IMG/VR virus record: IMGVR_UViG_3300017917_002992
Location: 1-25,744 of that record
DNA length: 25,744 nucleotides
From: a virus
Strand: one strand, 5' to 3'
Below are positions 4,746 through 23,529 of the stretch, piece after piece. The notes beneath the pieces were generated by a model. It did not search any database, was not told the DNA's origin, and worked only from the letters and a program-made list of their open reading frames with translations. A program made the position numbers and the translations under genes. Position 1 is the first letter of the stretch. Every line of letters begins with the position of its first letter.

Positions 4746-7700
4746 ATGGCAAATCAAATTATTATCGATATCGGCGCTGTTGCAAATGACGGCACAGGTG
4801 ATCCCTTACGCACTGCGTTCGGTTATGTAAACAATAACTTTTCCAATATTTGGGCAACCGGTGTTGCCAACTCAAACATTGCTTTTTCTGGAAATAAAAT
4901 CTTAACAACCAATACCAATGGTAATTTGGTACTGTCACCCAATGGCACAGGCAAAGTGCAAGCCAACGTAGACATCGTACCCAATGCTAATAACACATTA
5001 AATTTAGGTAGTTTAACCAACAAATGGAACACTGTTTATACACAGTATTTGGAAATCTCTGGCACACTAACCACCAGCGATTTAACAGTAGATGGCAATT
5101 TAACTGTCACAGGCAATGTTATTCAAATTGGCAATTTAGTAACAGACGCCAAGACTATTCAATTAAGTAACACTGCTAGCACTGCCAATGCCGCCAATGG
5201 ATCTGGTATCACAGTGGGTGCAAATGATAACATTGCCACAATGTTATACCGTTCTTCGGACAATGTTTGGGTTACAAACATTGGGTTAAATGTCAACGGT
5301 AATCTATTATTGGCCAACGGAGCTTCTCTTAAAAACACTGGCACTGATTTACTTAGAGTAAACAGTCCGGCTAATGGTGTTGCACGATTACAAGGTACCA
5401 ATGCCGACGGTAATAGCACAGGAGCTAGTTTTTCAGCCGATGGCGTGCTGTCACAAGCCAGTATAACCGCTTATGATGTTGCTAACTCTGTAGGGAAAAC
5501 ATGGTTCTTTAATAATGCCGGTGAACTTATTAACCCAGGCAACATTCTTGTTACAGCAGGTCATGGAATTATAGGAACCGGAGCTGGAACATTTTTGATA
5601 GGATTTACTACTCTAAATTCTGAAGAATCTTATATCACACGAGGAACATTCAGCGGTAATTCAACCACCGGCGATGGATCATTGTATGTAGGTTCACCAT
5701 CATACACCGATCTAGGCACGGATGTCATGGGACAGTTCACCGGCAACGTAGTGAATTATGCTCAGCTCAATCTACAAAATTATGGCAATAGTCCTACATC
5801 ATCTGGAGATTACATTATCACCGCCAACAACGGCACAGATTCAACACACTTCCTTAATCTAGGTCTAACTAATTCCAACTGGGATGGTACACAACCCAAC
5901 AGCCTAGGTAACAGACTAGGACCCAACGATGGCTACTTGTATGTTCAAGATGGTGACTTTACCATTGGTACTAGCAATGGCAACATTGAAACTTGGAAGT
6001 TCGGTCAAGATGGTACATTAACTGTGGCTGGCGATATTAATCCTACAGCCAACAACACCCAGAGTTTGGGCAATGCCACAAACCAATGGTCGGACTTGTA
6101 TGTGTCAAACGCTACCATCTTCATGAATGGTGTGCCCATCAGTTTGGGTGACGGCAATGTTCTTACTGTCAATGGCGAAGCTGTGTTAAGCAATGACTCA
6201 AACACCAGTATCTCTACTACTGGCAACGTCAGTGCTGAAATATTAACTGCAAATATAGCTGTTAATATTGGCACCGGAGCAATAGGAATTGGCGATGACA
6301 ACTATTTGGTAGTTGAAACTTTAGTACCAGGTGGACTACGACCCAGCAACGATGATACATACAATTTAGGAAATGTATCTCATCGCTGGTCAGAAGTACA
6401 CGCTAATGTTTACTATGGTGATGGTAGTCAACTTACTGGATTGAATCTTACATCAATCAGCAATGATGGATCGATTGTGGACATTGTTGTTCCCAATGGT
6501 GATGTCACAATCACAGCCAACAGCACACAAACTTGGGCATTTGGTACAGATGGTAGATTAACATTCCCTGGCACGCCCAGAATTGCCACTGACGCAAATA
6601 ATTTTGAAGTCCAGGCCGCAGAGTCCATTAACTTTGAAGCAAACGCTGTGGTCAACATCTACACTGATACCAGTGGAACCACATACCAATGGCAGTTTGG
6701 CGATAATGGTAATTTAAACTTGCCAGCAGGTGGTAGCATCATAGTAGATGGTGGAGTCGGGGCGGTTGGTCCCGTCGGTGACAACCTGGTCATTAGTTGG
6801 GACAATGAAGAACTAATTTTGCAATCTGTGGGCGGCGATGTTGATGTTGAAGCTGACCGTGATTTCAATATTCGAGTCAACTACGACGGCGGTGCCGGCG
6901 ACTACTTAACCAAATGGGTTTTTGGTCAAAATAACGAAATTGTCAACATTACTGGCAACAGTGCTATTGTCACAGAAGCCGGTAATCTCAATCTCCAAGG
7001 CGGTAGAAACACACTCAGCAGTGGCAATGTGCAGATCACAGCAGTTGACAATGGCGTGGCTGTAAACACCTGGACATTTGACAACACTGGTAATTTAACT
7101 GCTCCTGGAAACGTAATATTCGCCGACAACTATGTCTACAGCGGCAACACATTTACATCGCCTGAGACCAACGGCATACTAAAGAATTTCAAATGGGAAT
7201 TCAGCGATCTCTCATACGGTGCCGATACTGTTACACTACAATGGAATTTACTAGACACTACCTTCCCGCAATGGTATCTTACAACCAATAGCCAAGGCAA
7301 CACTTATGTGTTTGATGGCGATGCCAAGACACTGGGATTTCTCGACAACAGCATCAACTCAGGCACAGTGACATTTGGCACAGCCGCTAACAACGGTGCC
7401 GGCAACAGCAACGACATTGAACTCACTACTGTAACTGGCAATGCGTATGTACGAACCGGCAGTAATAGTTGGAAATTTGACAACACCGGTGTTTTAACCG
7501 TGCCAGGAAATATTGCCACTAGTTGGTTAGACATAGGCAACATTGGCAACATAGCAACACTACAAGCCGACGTGAGTTTGCAAATCACTGCCAACGCCAG
7601 CGGCTCAGCGCCATACTGGACATTCAACAGCGACGGTAACTTGTTTGTGCCTGGCAGTATCAATGGTGACAACAACGGACCTTTGCTTATTGATGGTGTA

Positions 7701-13330: not shown

Positions 13331-14639
13331 GAGAGACCAACTCCTGCTGTAGTTCTGGATACAAATCCAACGCATTATATCCATGTACCTTATCCCAGCG
13401 TTTGCACCAAGACACAAGTTCGTCGAGCAACTCAGAGGCATTGGATAAACGAGGTGCCGATAACAAGTTTATACATTGTTGAACCTGATTTTTAATTATC
13501 AACGGCAATTGATTCACATCGCTCTCATTGTAGTCTCCAGAACAATCAACAGAGGAAAGCCCTAGTTCATTAATAAGTTTGTGATATTTCTGTTGATATA
13601 AATCACAAACATAATTGGGTAGAGCTCTTATATCAAGATATGCTGGTTCAAATACTGGAAGACATTTAACAATCAGTTGCTTTTCATAACAGTACTTTAA
13701 AAGAGTATCGTATGTACCTATGGTCAATATACTAACAGCAGGTCGTACAGTAAGTGTAATATTGTCTTTATTGCAGTGGGTTAGATATTTGTCTATATTT
13801 GACAATACCAAGTCAGTGTCGGTTCCTTGCCTTTGATAGGCATTGTGTGCTGTAATGGTTTCGATACTAACTTCAATGCCAACTCTTTTGAATTTTTTTA
13901 GCTTGTTAATTAAACTTTCATTGAATGTTGTACCATTGGTAACAAAACTAAAACTAAGATCGAATCGTCTGTGATCAATCATAAAATCTACAAAATCTTC
14001 AAATCGAGGTGTTATTAAAGTTTCACCTCCCATGAAGTGTACATTAGATAGATTTGGAATATTAACTAGTTCGGTAAGAACACGATTCCAAACCCTGTTG
14101 TCTCTTGTCCAATCGTTTCCTAAATATTGTTTTGCATCTTGTATGCCCCACTTGACATATTGAGCCGCAATACTTGAGCTGGCCTGTGGTATACACATTT
14201 TACAAGTTAGATTACAATAATTGCCTAAGTCAATGTGCAAATCAATTGGCATGCCTGAATAGGCTCCCTGATTTAATCTTGAATGTTCAAAATTGTTCCA
14301 TCCAGGAGATTGATCGTAGCTTCCATGAAAATTCTTGTTGGTAAAGATTACACTTTTTTGATTGGAACGATGACGTCTACTGGTGTCTCCGTGTTCTTCT
14401 TCAAAATAGCATCGTTGGCAGATACTTAATTTTTTATCCTCTAGCATATCAGCACGGACCTGACGCATAGGTGCACTATCAAACCATTGTTTGATGCTCA
14501 TAGTACGAATATTGTATTCATTGCTCTGATTGTTAGGATATATTTTATGATTTTCTTGACAGCAGAAACCTAAACTTCCGTCCCAATAAATTTGTAGTTC
14601 GTACCACGGAGCATTACAAAATATTTGTTGATTAGGCAT
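13320..14639 (-). CDS. Radical SAM protein with N-terminal twitch/SPASM-like cysteine module, 439 aa
   Basis: The radical SAM core is at about residues 130-330. It shows [11 protein letters not shown] (C142-x3-C146-x2-C149, the 4Fe-4S ligands), MGGETL (the GGE motif that contacts SAM), then FVTNGT and VEVSIET-type strands. Unusually, a cysteine-rich module precedes the core: C8 in [21 protein letters not shown] (C26, C27), then [12 protein letters not shown] (C74, C77). This arrangement is known as a twitch-domain radical SAM protein and is common in environmental phages. It could hold a second iron-sulfur cluster. Substrate unknown; relatives modify peptides or sugars. It starts at ATG 14639 inside the ClpP end and overlaps the following gene by 11 bases, so all are co-translated. 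Confidence 0.9.
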
Positions 14640-15228
14640 TTCGTTTGGTAATTATTCGATCTGCTAAACCGTAATCTACAGCTTCTTGAGCACTCATAAA
14701 AAAGTCACGTTCCATGTCTTGTGCTAACTGCTCAAAGGTTTTACCTGCTGAATTGTGGTCAACATAGATTTGTGTTAGATACTTTTTCATCTTTAATATT
14801 TCTTGTGCTTGAATTTGAATGTCTGTTGCTTGTCCACGAGCGCCACCACTGGGTTGGTGAATCATGTGTCGTGCGTTAGGTAAAATTAAACGTTTACCTG
14901 CTGTACCAGCCTGGGCTAAACAACTGCCCATTGAACACGCTTGCCCCATGACAATAGTACTTACATCACATTTAATAAACTGCATGGTATCATAGATAGC
15001 CATACCTGCTGTAACTACACCACCTGGGCTATTGATGTAAAATAAAATATCGCGATCAGGATCTTCGGCTTCTAAGAACAACATCTGTGCTACTACTAGA
15101 CTAGCACTGTGTTCGTTAACGTCTGTATCTAGCATTACAATACGTTCTTTTAGCAGTCTGCTGTATATATCATAACTGCGTTCACCTTTTGATGTTTGTT
15201 CAACCACAATAGGTACTAAATTTGGCAT
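14632..15228 (-). CDS. clpP: ATP-dependent Clp protease proteolytic subunit (ClpP), 198 aa
   Basis: A complete canonical S14 peptidase. The catalytic triad is visible as S99 in GQACSMGS, H124 in HMIHQP and D175 in [11 protein letters not shown]. The N-terminus [20 protein letters not shown] equals the mature N-terminus of bacterial ClpP, so the phage enzyme is made without a propeptide. The [20 protein letters not shown] segment and the [10 protein letters not shown] handle region are preserved, so tetradecamer formation and docking to a host ClpX or ClpA are plausible. It would supply proteolysis during infection or mix with host ClpP. It lies between glycosyltransferase-like and radical SAM genes with overlaps on both sides. 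A RBS (AAGGAAT) precedes the ATG. Confidence 0.95.
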
Positions 15229-17162: not shown

Positions 17163-18731
17163 ATGCGCAACTTAATAGATCTAATTAAAAATCTCGAAGA
17201 AGCCCGAGGACTTAGTGCCCGTAAACCTGGCGAAGTATACAGCCGTGGAGAAACCGACGATGACAAAATTACCTTTCAAAATTTAACATTTTATCCTGAA
17301 GTTGGTAGTTTTACCAGTGGGGAAGAAATGATGACTGCGTTTGATGCTGTACAAAAACAAGTGGGTCATCCTATTGAAATGGTTAATCAACCCGGTTCTA
17401 ATCGTGCGTTTGGTGTGGCTGCATTTGATACTGCTGTGGGCACACGTTACTTGGCCAAGTTTGCCAAAGAGATCAAACCAGTTAGAGCACAAAATACATT
17501 TTTTCAAACCAAGGATATTCCAGGCGGGTTTAGTCAAACTGATGCTCGCGGTTCAAAAGAAAAAGTTGGTTACAAACCCAGTGATGTGTTGACTAATTTT
17601 AAAAGTCAAACTCCGGCGAGTATTTTAAAACAAATCGAAGAAAAGTTTGGTACAGATTCAGACGAATATCAAGCAGCCGTAATTATTACATCAGCAGAAT
17701 CATTTCCGGTAGCAGTGCCAGCAGGCAACATGGACTTTGCTGGTTTCCGTGACTATTTCTGTGAAATGCTACAGCCTATTATTTTGATCAACGGGCAACC
17801 AGTTAAAGGAAATGCTGCAGAGGCAGCCGCAACATTCATGGGCAAAAGTGGATTTGCAGGCAGCGTTGTAAGTTTCAATGAAGGTGCCACAGGTGGATTA
17901 TATGACAGTTTGTTGGTCAGTCCCAACGGTAAACAAATCAAACTATCCAGTAAAGGTGCCAAAGGTGCCATGGCGTCCAGTGTGAACTTGTTGCGTAGTG
18001 CAGAAGAACTCAAGTCAGCTGGGCTAGGCCGGATAGTTGACCAATATCCTGAAGTAGTTGGCATATTAGAAACCATTGACAAAGGTGACCATAATTCGGG
18101 TCCGTTGAATCTTGCAGTGGAATTAGGCATGATTGAACCAGGAGAAATTGCTCAAGTGATGAGTCTCAAAAAGTATGCAGGTGCTCAAGATTTTGATATT
18201 GATCGTACAGACCTAAGTAGCAATCTCAAGAAAATCTACAAAGAACGCACAGCTGAAGATCCTAGCAAGATTATTCCATTGAATCACATGGTATCCAGTA
18301 TTGCCTACAAAGTGTGTAACGAAATCAATACTAACACCAACTTTTCAGATGCAGCCGCAGATATTTTAAACAACTCAGCGTTTGTACAAATGTACACAGA
18401 TGCTAAAAAAGGCAAAGATGAATTTGTTATTCAAGGCTTTACTACAGTATGGCCTTCAAAGCTGTTTACAGATGTAACCTTGGAAGCACAGAAGAGTTAT
18501 AGTAGTACTGCCAGTTCAGGCGGTAAGTTAGTGTTCAACATCAACAAACAACCCAAAGCTGTGGCCAACAAAGAACTCGGCGCTACTACAGATGCTCCGG
18601 GTTCCAGCCAAGCAGGTGAATTAGTTGATTATATTCCACCACGTAGCAGTGTAACCGCTCGTGCCGGAGGCCTAGAAGAACCTAAAAAATTAGGGTCCGA
18701 AAAGACCCTTGGGCGTAAACGTCAGAAATAA
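17163..18731 (+). CDS. Large phage protein with capsid-targeting-like N-terminus, 522 aa
   Basis: The N-terminus MRNLIDLIKNLEEARGLSAR resembles the capsid-targeting sequence of T4 internal head proteins (MKTYQEFIAEA), and LEE|A fits the L/I-x-E cleavage rule of the gp21 prohead protease. After it comes KITFQNLTFYPEVGSFTSGE and an alpha/beta body including GNAAEAAATFMGKSGF, GGLYDSLLVSPNGKQIKLSS and KGAKGAMASSVNLLRSAEEL. A disordered basic C-terminus ends LGRKRQK. I recognise no enzyme family. The N-terminus, length and late-strand position suggest a protein packaged in the head and perhaps injected. It lacks a Shine-Dalgarno sequence. It converges head-on with the second ClpP gene, with adjacent stop codons. 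Confidence 0.8.
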   Translation: MRNLIDLIKNLEEARGLSARKPGEVYSRGETDDDKITFQNLTFYPEVGSFTSGEEMMTAFDAVQKQVGHPIEMVNQPGSNRAFGVAAFDTAVGTRYLAKFAKEIKPVRAQNTFFQTKDIPGGFSQTDARGSKEKVGYKPSDVLTNFKSQTPASILKQIEEKFGTDSDEYQAAVIITSAESFPVAVPAGNMDFAGFRDYFCEMLQPIILINGQPVKGNAAEAAATFMGKSGFAGSVVSFNEGATGGLYDSLLVSPNGKQIKLSSKGAKGAMASSVNLLRSAEELKSAGLGRIVDQYPEVVGILETIDKGDHNSGPLNLAVELGMIEPGEIAQVMSLKKYAGAQDFDIDRTDLSSNLKKIYKERTAEDPSKIIPLNHMVSSIAYKVCNEINTNTNFSDAAADILNNSAFVQMYTDAKKGKDEFVIQGFTTVWPSKLFTDVTLEAQKSYSSTASSGGKLVFNINKQPKAVANKELGATTDAPGSSQAGELVDYIPPRSSVTARAGGLEEPKKLGSEKTLGRKRQK

Positions 18732-19319
18732 CTATTTTCTTAGATCGCTAATGTAGTCACAAATGCCTAGAGCTAATGCTTCATCGGCTGTGAGCCATAC
18801 ATCACTAGGAGGTAACAATGTTACCTTGATTTCTTCTTCGCTTAATCCGGTACATTCTTTGTAGTGTTCAACCATTCTAGCTTGAGTAAGATTAAATTCT
18901 TTAGTAATAGAAAATAGCTCGTGTGCTTTGCCATCACTGCCCCAACTGTACTGATGACTTAGAATTGACGTGTTTGGTGTAAGTATTCTATGACCTCGGT
19001 GCCCGGCCATGAAAATAAGCAGGCCGCAAGAAGCAATTGATCCTAAGCCCACAGTTTTAACAGGAATTGAGCTGGCACGCATAACATCAATCAAAGCAAA
19101 CGCATCAGCAACACTTCCACCATCGCTACAAATCATCAGCAACAGTTCTTTTTTCTTTTTCTTGGTCACATGATTTTCTACCAAGATCCATTCAACAATG
19201 GGCTTGATACTTTCGCTGTTTACGTCGTCCATAAACACATACATACCAGCATCTTGTAACAGCTGACTGTGTGTTTTTTCTGCGGACAGTTCTTCTTGTG
19301 CGGGCATTTTTTCAGACAT
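18732..19319 (-). CDS. Second, divergent ClpP-like serine protease, 195 aa
   Basis: A ClpP-fold protein clearly different from the canonical copy. The triad can be placed at S97 (GSIASCGLLIF), H122 (SILSHQYSWG) and D173 (PPSDVWLTADEA), with the oxyanion segment CSDGGSVADAFALIDVM. The N-terminal ~25 residues (MSEKMPAQEELSAEKTHSQL) are charged and unlike the ClpP axial loop. There is a lysine run (KKKKK at 53-57), and the hydrophobic ClpX-docking features are less obvious. It might form its own ring, mix with the canonical ClpP, or act without an unfoldase. It has its own extended -10 promoter (19351-19379) and RBS AAAGGATC, so it appears to be expressed separately from the first ClpP. Confidence 0.9.
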   Translation of the reverse strand: MSEKMPAQEELSAEKTHSQLLQDAGMYVFMDDVNSESIKPIVEWILVENHVTKKKKKELLLMICSDGGSVADAFALIDVMRASSIPVKTVGLGSIASCGLLIFMAGHRGHRILTPNTSILSHQYSWGSDGKAHELFSITKEFNLTQARMVEHYKECTGLSEEEIKVTLLPPSDVWLTADEALALGICDYISDLRK

Positions 19320-19392: not shown

Positions 19393-20367
19393 TTAACAAT
19401 CTTTTTGTGACAGAATTTTTACCTGAATTCTATCCACTTGTTTTAAACGTTCGGTATTTTGCCCAAAATTTAGGCTTAAATCTCCGCCCACACTGTATCG
19501 GGTGTCAAAAAACACTGAGTCTCGGTGCCAAAGTAACAGATATCTTGTGGGTCTGTGAAATCCAGTAGCGTCTGGACTGATTGTAAACCCTTGACACTCT
19601 TTTTGTAGTACAGTACCGTGACTGTCCACAGCTGAAATTTGAATAGTGGGTTCTCGAATCACAGATTGTTGGTAAACCCAGGCATGCTTGGCTGGATCTC
19701 TAGTGCGTTTTAGTGTATCATTAACAGCATCTACAAACCGAGTATCCCAACGTATGGTTACGTCTGTGGTAATAACGGCTCGTCGGTATTCGTCAAACTT
19801 GACTTGACTGCGTCCTACCCGGACATCAAATGCTCTGTGTGGATAATCCTGCATGATTGTTTGGATCAAACGATCACCTTGCTGGCGCTCATCTAACAAG
19901 GTTTCAACTTGAGCACCAATGCGGTCACCGGGTATTTGTTGACTGTCATAGCTTTGTCCTAATAACCGATGGGCTAATCGACTTTCAGCCACCCAGACAC
20001 GCATCTTTAATCTAACGCCGGTGCCCAAAGACTGCTGTTCCAAAATTTCAAAACGATCAACAAATCCTGAACTGTAGTTTATGACTTCGTCCCGGATGAC
20101 TCGTTGGTTTTGTGTTTGAGTCTGTGTGGCCACAACTGATCCTATGGCTTGATTTACCGCGGTTCGAAAGCCTTCCATCCGGGCCTGTTCTGCTGTAGCA
20201 CCTTCTGTGACCACATCAACCTGTGTGTAGTCTTGTTTTCCGGATCCTAGATTGATAGCAATACGAATCACACTAAGCACCACACTGGCAGTGCTCATTG
20301 GTGTAGTTTGAGCTTGAACTGGCCCACAAAGAGCCAGCACAATGGCCAGAGCTACTGCTTTACGCAC
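19393..20367 (-). CDS. Secreted FlgT N-domain-like periplasmic protein, 324 aa
   Basis: A signal peptide (MRKAVALAIVLALCGPVQA, cleavage after AQA near residue 20) exports it. Residues about 50-135 (VVTEGATAEQARMEGFRTAV, GFVDRFEILEQQSLGTGVRL, MRVWVAES) follow the pattern of the FlgT N-terminal domain and related folds: a helix with QAR-x-x-A-x-x-A-V-x-Q-A-I-G, then SSGFVxxxxI and a strand with V. The rest is beta-rich and ends IQVKILSQKDC. FlgT works with the lipoprotein FlgP on the flagellar H-ring in Vibrio. Here the partner gene just upstream encodes an LPP20/FlgP-type lipoprotein. The start is GTG 20367, two bases after that gene's stop, so the two are coupled. The role in infection is unknown. 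Confidence 0.75.
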   Translation of the reverse strand: MRKAVALAIVLALCGPVQAQTTPMSTASVVLSVIRIAINLGSGKQDYTQVDVVTEGATAEQARMEGFRTAVNQAIGSVVATQTQTQNQRVIRDEVINYSSGFVDRFEILEQQSLGTGVRLKMRVWVAESRLAHRLLGQSYDSQQIPGDRIGAQVETLLDERQQGDRLIQTIMQDYPHRAFDVRVGRSQVKFDEYRRAVITTDVTIRWDTRFVDAVNDTLKRTRDPAKHAWVYQQSVIREPTIQISAVDSHGTVLQKECQGFTISPDATGFHRPTRYLLLWHRDSVFFDTRYSVGGDLSLNFGQNTERLKQVDRIQVKILSQKDC

Positions 20368-20369
20368 TG

Positions 20370-21065
20370 TTACATTGACATCAAGTTACGCAACACAGGA
20401 CGTACAGCGTTGCTTTTACGATCCCAACGATAGACCACACGCACATTCTTGCCGTCGTTGATCACAGTGCCTTCCACAAGATACAATCCACCAATAATAC
20501 CACGGTTGTTTACTGTGATTGTGGTTTTCACTTGGCTGGCAATGCGTAGTGCATCATTGCGAACTGCTGTATTTTCTTCTTTGTTCACTTCACCATCAGC
20601 TTTGGCCTGTGCTTCGACTTCTTCGTCTGTGGCAATGGCTGCTACTTGATCACGATTTTTGTTTGTGGCAAACTTGTTGGTTTTGTTGTCACGAGCCTGT
20701 TCAATATTTTTGCTAATCATTGTTACTGACTTTGAACTAGCAATGGTTTCCTTATTGATAAAATCATTAAGTGATTTCTTTGCTTCAAGTTCGGCCACAC
20801 GGAATGCTTCGCGAGCGGCGTTTTGACTGTTACCCCATACAGGTGCATAACCAATGGTTTCAATAGCATCCACTTCACCACCTAATGTGTAGATAATTTT
20901 TACACCTTCACGTTTGAAATCATTTTCTAATCGTTGTTCAGAGATTGCTTGCTGTGGACCAGCTGGCAATGTTTGACCAGGACCAACGCTTGAAACTTTG
21001 GTTGAGCTACAAGCACTCAATCCCAAAGCGGCCAAAACAGCTAAACCTAATACGGTTCGTTTCAT
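20370..21065 (-). CDS. LPP20/FlgP-like outer membrane lipoprotein, 231 aa
   Basis: MKRTVLGLAVLAALGLSACS is a perfect lipoprotein signal with lipobox LSAC (Cys19). The residues after it (SSTKV) lack Asp at +2, so Lol sorting to the outer membrane is expected. The middle (IETIGYAPVWGNSQNAAREA then FRVAELEAKKSLNDFINKET) matches the LPP20-domain pattern GYAP...ARxxAxxxAxxxLxxxI. Near residues 180-220 a beta part (TTITVNNRGIIGGLYLVEGT) follows. ATG 21065 with GAAGGAAAT is chosen over an in-frame ATG at 21260 inside the phasin gene. It pairs with the FlgT-like gene downstream. The phage may add an envelope complex, perhaps for superinfection exclusion or lysis, but this is speculation. Confidence 0.85.
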   Translation of the reverse strand: MKRTVLGLAVLAALGLSACSSTKVSSVGPGQTLPAGPQQAISEQRLENDFKREGVKIIYTLGGEVDAIETIGYAPVWGNSQNAAREAFRVAELEAKKSLNDFINKETIASSKSVTMISKNIEQARDNKTNKFATNKNRDQVAAIATDEEVEAQAKADGEVNKEENTAVRNDALRIASQVKTTITVNNRGIIGGLYLVEGTVINDGKNVRVVYRWDRKSNAVRPVLRNLMSM

Positions 21066-21080
21066 GATATTTCCTTCATT

Positions 21081-21119
21081 AAAAAATCCAGTATGTGTAA
21101 TATAACACAATACTGGATT
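21081..21119 (-). terminator. Intrinsic terminator after the phasin gene, overlapping the lipoprotein promoter
   Basis: Minus strand arms AATCCAGTAT (21119-21110) and ATACTGGATT (21094-21085) are extended inward by GTGT/ACAC with one bulged base, giving a 14-bp stem. A T-run follows at once (21084-21081). It starts 20 bases after the phasin stop. The stem contains the -10 box and most of the spacer of promoter 21099-21127. Confidence 0.85.
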
Positions 21120-21127
21120 CTGGTCAA
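21099..21127 (-). promoter_or_regulatory. Sigma-70-like early promoter (TTGACCAGAA class) of the lipoprotein operon
   Basis: Minus strand TTGACC (21127-21122), 17-base spacer, TATATT (21104-21099) preceded by TGT. It keeps the CCAGAA extension and sits inside the terminator hairpin of the upstream gene. Confidence 0.88.
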
Positions 21128-21138
21128 GCTGTTTTGGA

Positions 21139-21393
21139 TTACTTGCTTGCTGTTGCTGTTTTGAAGTTCTTTTGAGCTTGTTCAGCGGCTGTTTGGAAAG
21201 CCTTGCCAAAACTCTTAGCAGCAACCAAATTGGCGCGAGCAAAGTTTGCGTTTGCGGCATTCAAAGTCAAAAGAGTTTCTTTGACATCAGCCTGTGGCAA
21301 ATATGTCAATACACTTGCTACAGTCTTTTCTGTTTGATCTACCAATGCGTCTACGTTGAACATCTGTTCGAATTGTTTGAAATTTAATTCCAT
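21139..21393 (-). CDS. Phasin-like small amphipathic protein, 84 aa
   Basis: MELNFKQFEQMFNVDALVDQ is followed by long amphipathic helices (TLLTLNAANANFARANLVAAK, then FGKAFQTAAEQAQKNFKTAT). This resembles phasins, which coat polyhydroxyalkanoate granules: an N-terminal FEQMFxVDALV, a central LNAANANFARAN and a terminal SFGKAFQTAAEQAQKNF. It is shorter than bacterial phasins (commonly over 140 residues). A host PHB-granule target is therefore an inference; another helical bundle protein is possible. AAGGAG precedes ATG 21393, with a clear promoter at 21481-21509 and a strong terminator behind, so it is a monocistronic, probably abundant product. Confidence 0.6.
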   Translation of the reverse strand: MELNFKQFEQMFNVDALVDQTEKTVASVLTYLPQADVKETLLTLNAANANFARANLVAAKSFGKAFQTAAEQAQKNFKTATASK

Positions 21394-22824: not shown

Positions 22825-23529
22825 TTATGTTCTGAGTTTGGCCAAACCTAGCACACGCAAAATTTGGATATAAAACCAACCTATGTCAAATTCCCACCAA
22901 CGTTGACTAAATTTGGCATTGGCACCATCTGCGTGATGATTGTTATGGAGCTCTTCGCCACCTATCCAAAATGCAATAGGCCACAAGTTACGTGAAGTAT
23001 CTTTGGTATCAGTATTTCTATAACCCCACCAGTGTGCAAGTCCGTTGATAACCCCGGCGGCAAAAAACGGCACCCAGATCATTTGAATACCCCAAATAAG
23101 CAATCCCCACCAGCCAAAACAAAGTAGATTTATGAGCAATAACAAAGAAATTCCTAAGCGACTGTGTGGTGCGTATACGTTATTTTCCAACCAATCGTTG
23201 GGAGTACCTACACCTAATTTTTCCACCATTTCTTTGTCTTTGCTGGCTTGGTGATACAAAAATGCTCCACCAAACAACACACGACGAATACCATAAATTT
23301 GTGGGCTATGCGGATCAGATTCTGTGTCTGATGCTTGGTGATGTTTGCGGTGTATAGCTACCCATTGCTTTGTGACCATACCAGTGGTTAACCATAACCA
23401 AAATCTCATAAAATGATTAATTGCTGGATGAAATGTTACTGCTCGATGTGTTTGACCTCTATGCAAATATAGGGTAACACAGGCTATGGTGATTTGAACC
23501 ATCACCAGGGTATAGATTAGTTCAGTCAT
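22825..23529 (-). CDS. Membrane fatty-acid (acyl) desaturase, 234 aa
   Basis: The three histidine boxes of di-iron membrane desaturases are present: HRGQTH (H23, H28), HRKHH (H60, H63, H64) and HNNHH (H195, H198, H199), plus the extra NGLAHWWGYRN. Four hydrophobic spans (about residues 3-22, 40-55, 125-142, 143-165) fit the delta-9 acyl-lipid/acyl-CoA desaturase fold. The enzyme would put double bonds into membrane acyl chains, using oxygen and host electron carriers. It is somewhat shorter than bacterial homologues (about 250-300) but has all ligands. Desaturases occur in some cyanophages. It follows the GNAT gene by three bases and is the last of a four-gene minus operon. Confidence 0.93.
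   Translation of the reverse strand: MTELIYTLVMVQITIACVTLYLHRGQTHRAVTFHPAINHFMRFWLWLTTGMVTKQWVAIHRKHHQASDTESDPHSPQIYGIRRVLFGGAFLYHQASKDKEMVEKLGVGTPNDWLENNVYAPHSRLGISLLLLINLLCFGWWGLLIWGIQMIWVPFFAAGVINGLAHWWGYRNTDTKDTSRNLWPIAFWIGGEELHNNHHADGANAKFSQRWWEFDIGWFYIQILRVLGLAKLRT

Follow-up and report, generated by a model that had tools for sequence, protein, structure and literature searches.

The stretch of DNA analysed here (the window) is a 25.7-kb IMG/VR virus record, whose minus strand carries two adjacent genes for secreted proteins, a lipoprotein and a periplasmic protein with a FlgT_N domain. The pair and its surroundings comprise the following features:

21139-21393, minus strand: small phasin-like open reading frame, by synteny the left border gene of the slot, outside the cassette
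21099-21127, minus strand: sigma70-type promoter for the pair, TTGACC-17-TATATT with a TG extension, a consensus match
21085-21119, minus strand: inverted repeat with the -10 element in its loop and T's directly behind it; RNA folding gives -18.8 kcal/mol and z -6.8
20370-21065, minus strand: lipoprotein gene, ATG start, 231 aa, lipobox LSAC followed by S, with Cys19
19393-20367, minus strand: gene of the FlgT_N-domain periplasmic protein, GTG start, 324 aa, signal peptide at about residues 1-20
19957-20217, minus strand: FlgT_N-like domain, residues 51-137, delimited by hhalign
19396-19596, minus strand: C-terminal stretch bounded by Cys258 and Cys324, both invariant in 40 sequences
18732-19319, minus strand: ClpPa, a divergent protease of the ClpP type that borders the slot on the right, outside the cassette

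The two open reading frames lie where a previous reading of the letters alone (the sequence-only reading) had placed them, and are separated by 2 nt between the stop of the lipoprotein gene and the start of the FlgT-like gene. The coupling that it had proposed recurs throughout the family: IMG/VR searches yielded 41 non-redundant loci with the pair, on incomplete contigs in records of up to 349 kb, and the genes are adjacent in 41/41, spaced by -4 to +4 nt. Since this adjacency and spacing, together with a lipobox in the first protein and a signal peptide in the second, are kept in all 41 loci, the pair is not a chance arrangement. One broken copy was seen (L086, 4228-6810), consisting of a truncated lipoprotein, ~1.5 kb of other open reading frames and a 5'-truncated FlgT-like gene.

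Relatives outside this set were scarce. None of 50,697 INPHARED phage records matched the pair, the FlgT-like protein had no match among plasmids (PLSDB, tblastn), and the lipoprotein had no relatives in GTDB genomes, where the search with the FlgT-like protein returned a single match, a Geobacter FlgT_N protein. Three FlgT-like relatives are present in BFVD, all annotated as uncharacterized and derived from uncultured Caudovirales. Neither window protein, searched singly, matched a Pfam family; a PDB sequence search with both family profiles gave nothing relevant, the window proteins had at most one, chance-level match in PHROGs, and scans of NCBIfam and PHROG yielded weak matches at chance level. 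The comparisons below use alignments and profiles of 40 relatives per protein, and their pairwise hhalign E-values are without database calibration.

FlgP/LPP20 lipoproteins build the basal disk of C. jejuni and the H-ring of Vibrio, and include Lpp20 of H. pylori. The phage lipoprotein is mostly 51-67% identical between relatives and the window copy. Its lipobox, as had been read from the window, is genuine and has an invariant Cys19; the +2 residue is S, G, A or T, with Asp in 0/40, from which the enterobacterial Lol rule predicts sorting to the outer membrane. The LPP20-type domain that had been assigned to it fared less well. Pfam LPP20 matched none of the 40 family members, and a direct hhalign comparison with bacterial LPP20 failed (13%). 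Against A10, the phage LPP20 family of the alternative module described below, the profile reached 89-93% over only ~30 columns, with most decoys at <=2% and one self-reverse decoy at 64%. The structural model (pLDDT 61) has a core of the order beta-alpha-insert-beta-beta-alpha, in which the insert of ~90 residues is disordered. Tip-alpha, Lpp20 (5ok8) and FlgP (9hmf) appear in the first 25 of 350,542 chains, at non-significant E-values of 0.7-2.9, and no match of this fold search passes E 0.001. FlgP shares this order, with a long insert that correlates with ring formation in a 2025 study (PMC12222027), and the phage insert falls at the same place. With low confidence, then, the topology is SHS2/LPP20/FlgP-like; the LPP20/FlgP likeness is weak by sequence and becomes plausible through three weak lines, so that profile and fold lend the claimed domain indirect support while the Pfam match is missing.

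FlgT is an H-ring protein of Vibrio and Aeromonas whose N-terminal domain defines the family PF16548. The second phage protein evolves faster than the lipoprotein (mostly 24-32% identity to the window copy) and has a signal-like N-terminus in 40/40 sequences by inspection. Its predicted FlgT N-domain was borne out. A profile of the 40 phage proteins aligned with one of 16 bacterial FlgT_N proteins at 98.6% (E 1.3e-15) over residues 51-137, with reversed decoys at most at 5%. The clearest signal for LPP20 or FlgT_N also lies in this second protein, at about residues 51-137 only. Both families are among the top Pfam families over the 40 members, each in 4/40, with best E-values of 0.0023 for FlgT_N, which is not among the curated-cut-off matches, and 0.0072 for LPP20. 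When its AlphaFold2 model (pLDDT 77) is compared with PDB folds, the C. jejuni scaffold protein FlgP (9hmf_A, prob 1.00) ranks best at E 5.5e-3, together with the Vibrio LPHT ring (8z5n); neither passes E 0.001. Because the profile match ends at column 137, with no Pfam FlgT_M or FlgT_C in the remainder, this is a FlgT_N-domain protein and not a FlgT. It resembles FlgT in being secreted, in its N-terminal domain and in its similar length, whereas its C-terminal half is unlike the middle and C domains of FlgT and contains the two invariant cysteines, which probably form a periplasmic Cys258-Cys324 disulfide.

The fold matches to FlgP and a Vibrio ring, together with the FlgT_N domain, would suit a pair that mimics FlgP/FlgT ring parts and thereby interferes with the flagellar motor, as the sequence-only reading had suggested, or hijacks it. 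The confinement of the alignment to columns 51-137, without middle or C domain, argues against such mimicry, as does the phage-encoded context, in which the neighbourhood of the pair holds no flagellar genes. In Desulfobacterota genomes, proteins matching LPP20 are repeatedly encoded immediately before FlgT_N genes (G020, G040 and G058 are examples), the same gene order as in the phages, and the short stretches read around these genes contained no flagellar genes either. Bacterial FlgT_N genes thus often stand beside an LPP20-type gene, and FlgT_N need not mean flagella. Moreover, the LPP20 module that replaces the pair in other phages (see below) has no FlgT_N partner. We therefore regard a flagellar role as improbable.

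The TTGACC promoter of the pair, likewise proposed from the letters, is real as a consensus match, the basis on which all promoters are identified here. In the window it reads TTGACC-17-TGTTATATT (21127-21099), and TTGAC-N16-18-TATAAT-like sites stand upstream of the pair in 30/40 relatives; in L015 such a site lies above an additional, entericidin-like gene. Strict sites of this kind are strongly strand-biased in two large contigs, with 40 on the plus and 0 on the minus strand of G002 (~1 expected per strand) and 51 versus 1 in G003 (~0.5 expected). None occurs between 123 and 232 kb of G002, the stretch holding the T4-type major capsid gene gp23. This places the pair in a host-type promoter class that is absent from the structural (capsid/tail) block of G002, and this class suggests that it is probably expressed early, as had been supposed.

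The hairpin that encloses the -10 element has a homolog in a relative (L040; fold -20.8, z -7.25). In the window it could stop read-through from the upstream gene and spare transcripts that start at the promoter, because transcription starting inside the hairpin would cut it. That promoters of these phages generally lie within hairpins was rejected, strong hairpins around the -10 being rare among other promoters; the sole other strong case in G002 (~47868-47890) precedes a DnaJ-like gene.

The position of the pair is constant: it is preceded by the phasin-like gene and followed by ClpPa, ClpX or, at three loci, a metallopeptidase-like gene. In most relatives the phasin-like protein is conserved beside the slot, and the window copy matches no Pfam family above its cut-off. 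Among 79 ClpPa loci fetched independently of the pair, the pair is immediately upstream in 28, partial in 2 and missing in 49. Two close relatives with flanks 90-91% identical on both sides differ by a single block, 1,907 bp with the cassette (L018) and 69 bp without (L197). In a phylogeny of 82 non-redundant ClpPa proteins (38 with the pair, 26 with an alternative module, 18 with neither), the pair label changes 17 times, 13 of them forced by well-supported branches, a count that ClpPa recombination could inflate. A FlgT-like gene was not detected elsewhere in 11 large records that lack the pair in the slot, in a search without its own positive control, and no pair lies beside the ClpPa gene of those cultured phages whose ClpPa is nearest (Sinorhizobium Phosso, Synechococcus BUCT-ZZ01). 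Given its own promoter, its clean absence between near-identical flanks and its repeated gain and loss, the pair is an accessory cassette of the moron type, self-contained and ~1.9 kb long, in T4-like jumbo phages.

The slot can hold a different set of envelope proteins, and six relatives extend the pair itself:

L242 3939-5878: example of the alternative module, between the phasin-like and ClpPa genes; homologous slots in ~26 loci
L002 4877-4999: entericidin-like lipoprotein, upstream of the FlgP-like lipoprotein
L007 4840-4962: the same
L014 5882-6004: the same
L017 5837-5959: the same
L078 5229-5360: the same
L015 ~5870-5992: the same

The alternative module encodes a small lipoprotein, a secreted protein resembling 17-kDa surface antigens (a weak match that stays under the cut-off, with a best E of 4e-5) and a further lipoprotein that, by its 95.9% hhalign match to bacterial LPP20, qualifies as a genuine LPP20. 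It fills the slot in 26/82 loci, shares the promoter class of the pair cassette and was never found together with the pair in any stretch examined (82 loci). The entericidin-like genes (40-43 aa) have a best Pfam E of 1.1e-4, just under the curated cut-off, and that of L007 overlaps the start codon of the lipoprotein gene.

The phages that carry the cassette are giant lake-water phages, and T4-like jumbo phages because the gp23 gene is present in 5/8 large contigs. Some T4-like jumbo phages, certain carriers of the cassette among them, also encode a curli (T8SS) cluster of the type CsgF-CsgG-CsgA/B-FecR-like, which we observed at L026 1866-4705 and in G001, G006 and G069; CsgG passes the Pfam cut-off in 4/14 records. 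Such modules, known from pelagiphages (CsgG/CsgF; PMC9599517), resemble the pair in being phage-encoded outer-membrane lipoprotein machinery, and differ from it in consisting of separate genes whose presence is uncorrelated with the pair. A cluster ~1.7-4 kb from the pair in G003, and CsgG in G001 and G006, could suggest that the pair is part of a curli/T8SS-like secretion machine, and the Clp genes found nearly always downstream that it belongs to a Clp-linked proteostasis unit. Yet the pair occurs without CsgG in G002, G004, G005, G007 and G008 and CsgG without the pair in G069, so a curli accessory was rejected for lack of consistent co-occurrence. Likewise, ClpPa has its own upstream -10-like element, TGTTATAAT, and such a promoter-like site persists where the cassette is absent, on which ground a Clp operon was rejected as well. 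Membership in either system is very improbable. As to the Clp genes themselves, the window contains two of the ClpP family, a canonical one (14632-15228, minus strand) and ClpPa (18732-19319, minus strand), whose catalytic-type Ser, His and Asp are kept in 17 relatives.

A lipoprotein with a periplasmic partner, joined in six relatives by an entericidin-like lipoprotein of 40 aa upstream, also recalls a lysis function at the outer membrane, and spanin-like disruption was among the roles proposed earlier. In contrast to a two-component spanin, the pair has no transmembrane i-spanin and no short o-spanin lipoprotein; its proteins, of 231 and 324 aa, are both secreted, and neither the promoter class nor the accessory distribution fits lysis. 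G002 furthermore has lysis genes of its own 290 kb from the pair; they encode a GH19-like endolysin together with a TM/coiled-coil protein resembling an i-spanin and, at 43898-44179, a lipoprotein resembling an o-spanin. The pair was thus rejected as a spanin, a role largely refuted for G002 by this separate cassette, and a lytic function is exceedingly improbable.

The anatomy of the pair is well supported. We show its gene structure, coupling, FlgT_N homology, promoter class, the gain and loss of the cassette and the mutually exclusive alternative module; its function we infer. The sequence-only reading had taken the genes for a co-expressed envelope pair of the FlgP/LPP20-FlgT_N superfamily, which holds, with membership plausible for the lipoprotein. 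From the strong sigma70-type promoter, host RNA polymerase would, probably early, produce one transcript for two secreted proteins. The lipoprotein would be delivered to the outer membrane, on its inner side, and the partner would reside in the periplasm; its FlgT_N domain is of a type from which flagellar motors build rings associated with the outer membrane. By analogy, the pair probably assembles beneath the outer membrane into an oligomeric ring or scaffold. The altered envelope of the infected cell would then most likely serve to block rival phages from adsorption or injection.

Superinfection exclusion is a frequent role of envelope-altering phage cassettes that can be exchanged and have their own promoter. 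Because the pair is an exchangeable cassette with a promoter of its own, exclusion or takeover is the most likely class of function, and the best explanation, which we advance tentatively, is an early outer-membrane-associated ring or scaffold used most likely for superinfection exclusion or for remodelling of the envelope. Precedents are T5 Llp (PMC9586334) and Rtp45 (PMC12685063), early phage outer-membrane lipoproteins that act in exclusion and block receptors from the periplasmic side. Like these and Cor, the pair is predicted to supply a phage outer-membrane lipoprotein, probably early; unlike them, it is a much larger two-protein module with unrelated domains. Indeed, the exclusion lipoproteins examined are small and act alone (Rtp45 ~6 kDa, PMC12685063), which speaks against exclusion by a pair of 231 and 324 aa.

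The main rival, somewhat unlikely in our judgement, is envelope maintenance, in which the pair braces or repairs the outer-membrane barrier during jumbo-phage infection. FapH, a lipoprotein of the H. pylori flgP operon, and FlgP-linked outer-membrane rings protect this barrier (PMC11756786), and the alternative module in the same slot also encodes envelope proteins (the LPP20 lipoprotein and the protein weakly similar to 17-kDa surface antigens). The cassette, however, is often gained or lost among near-identical relatives, which argues against a need common to all these phages.

Exclusion by a ring or scaffold can be extended to a more general proposal, that phages repeatedly took up LPP20/FlgP and FlgT_N ring-forming proteins as interchangeable cassettes of one slot; we consider this unlikely. 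The same doubt attaches to its second part, that phages use them to build a ring or lattice of their own beneath the outer membrane of the host, which excludes rivals and constitutes a new class of superinfection exclusion. We found no description of LPP20- or FlgT-type proteins in phages in the open literature, and the pair as a self-contained accessory cassette in T4-like jumbo phages is new here. If correct, the proposed function would link the evolution of flagellar outer-membrane rings to envelope takeover by phages, define, for abundant, uncultured jumbo phages, a system of exclusion or remodelling that can be tested, and identify a genomic slot in which envelope modules are swapped.

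Two further loci of the window lie outside the slot. On the opposite strand, 17163-18731 (plus strand) encodes a protein of ~520 aa that belongs to no known family and is conserved in position but very variable in sequence (E 0 to 1e-5). At 22825-23529 (minus strand), a fatty-acid desaturase (PF00487, E 1.8e-13) is encoded beside a GNAT acetyltransferase and is kept in many relatives.
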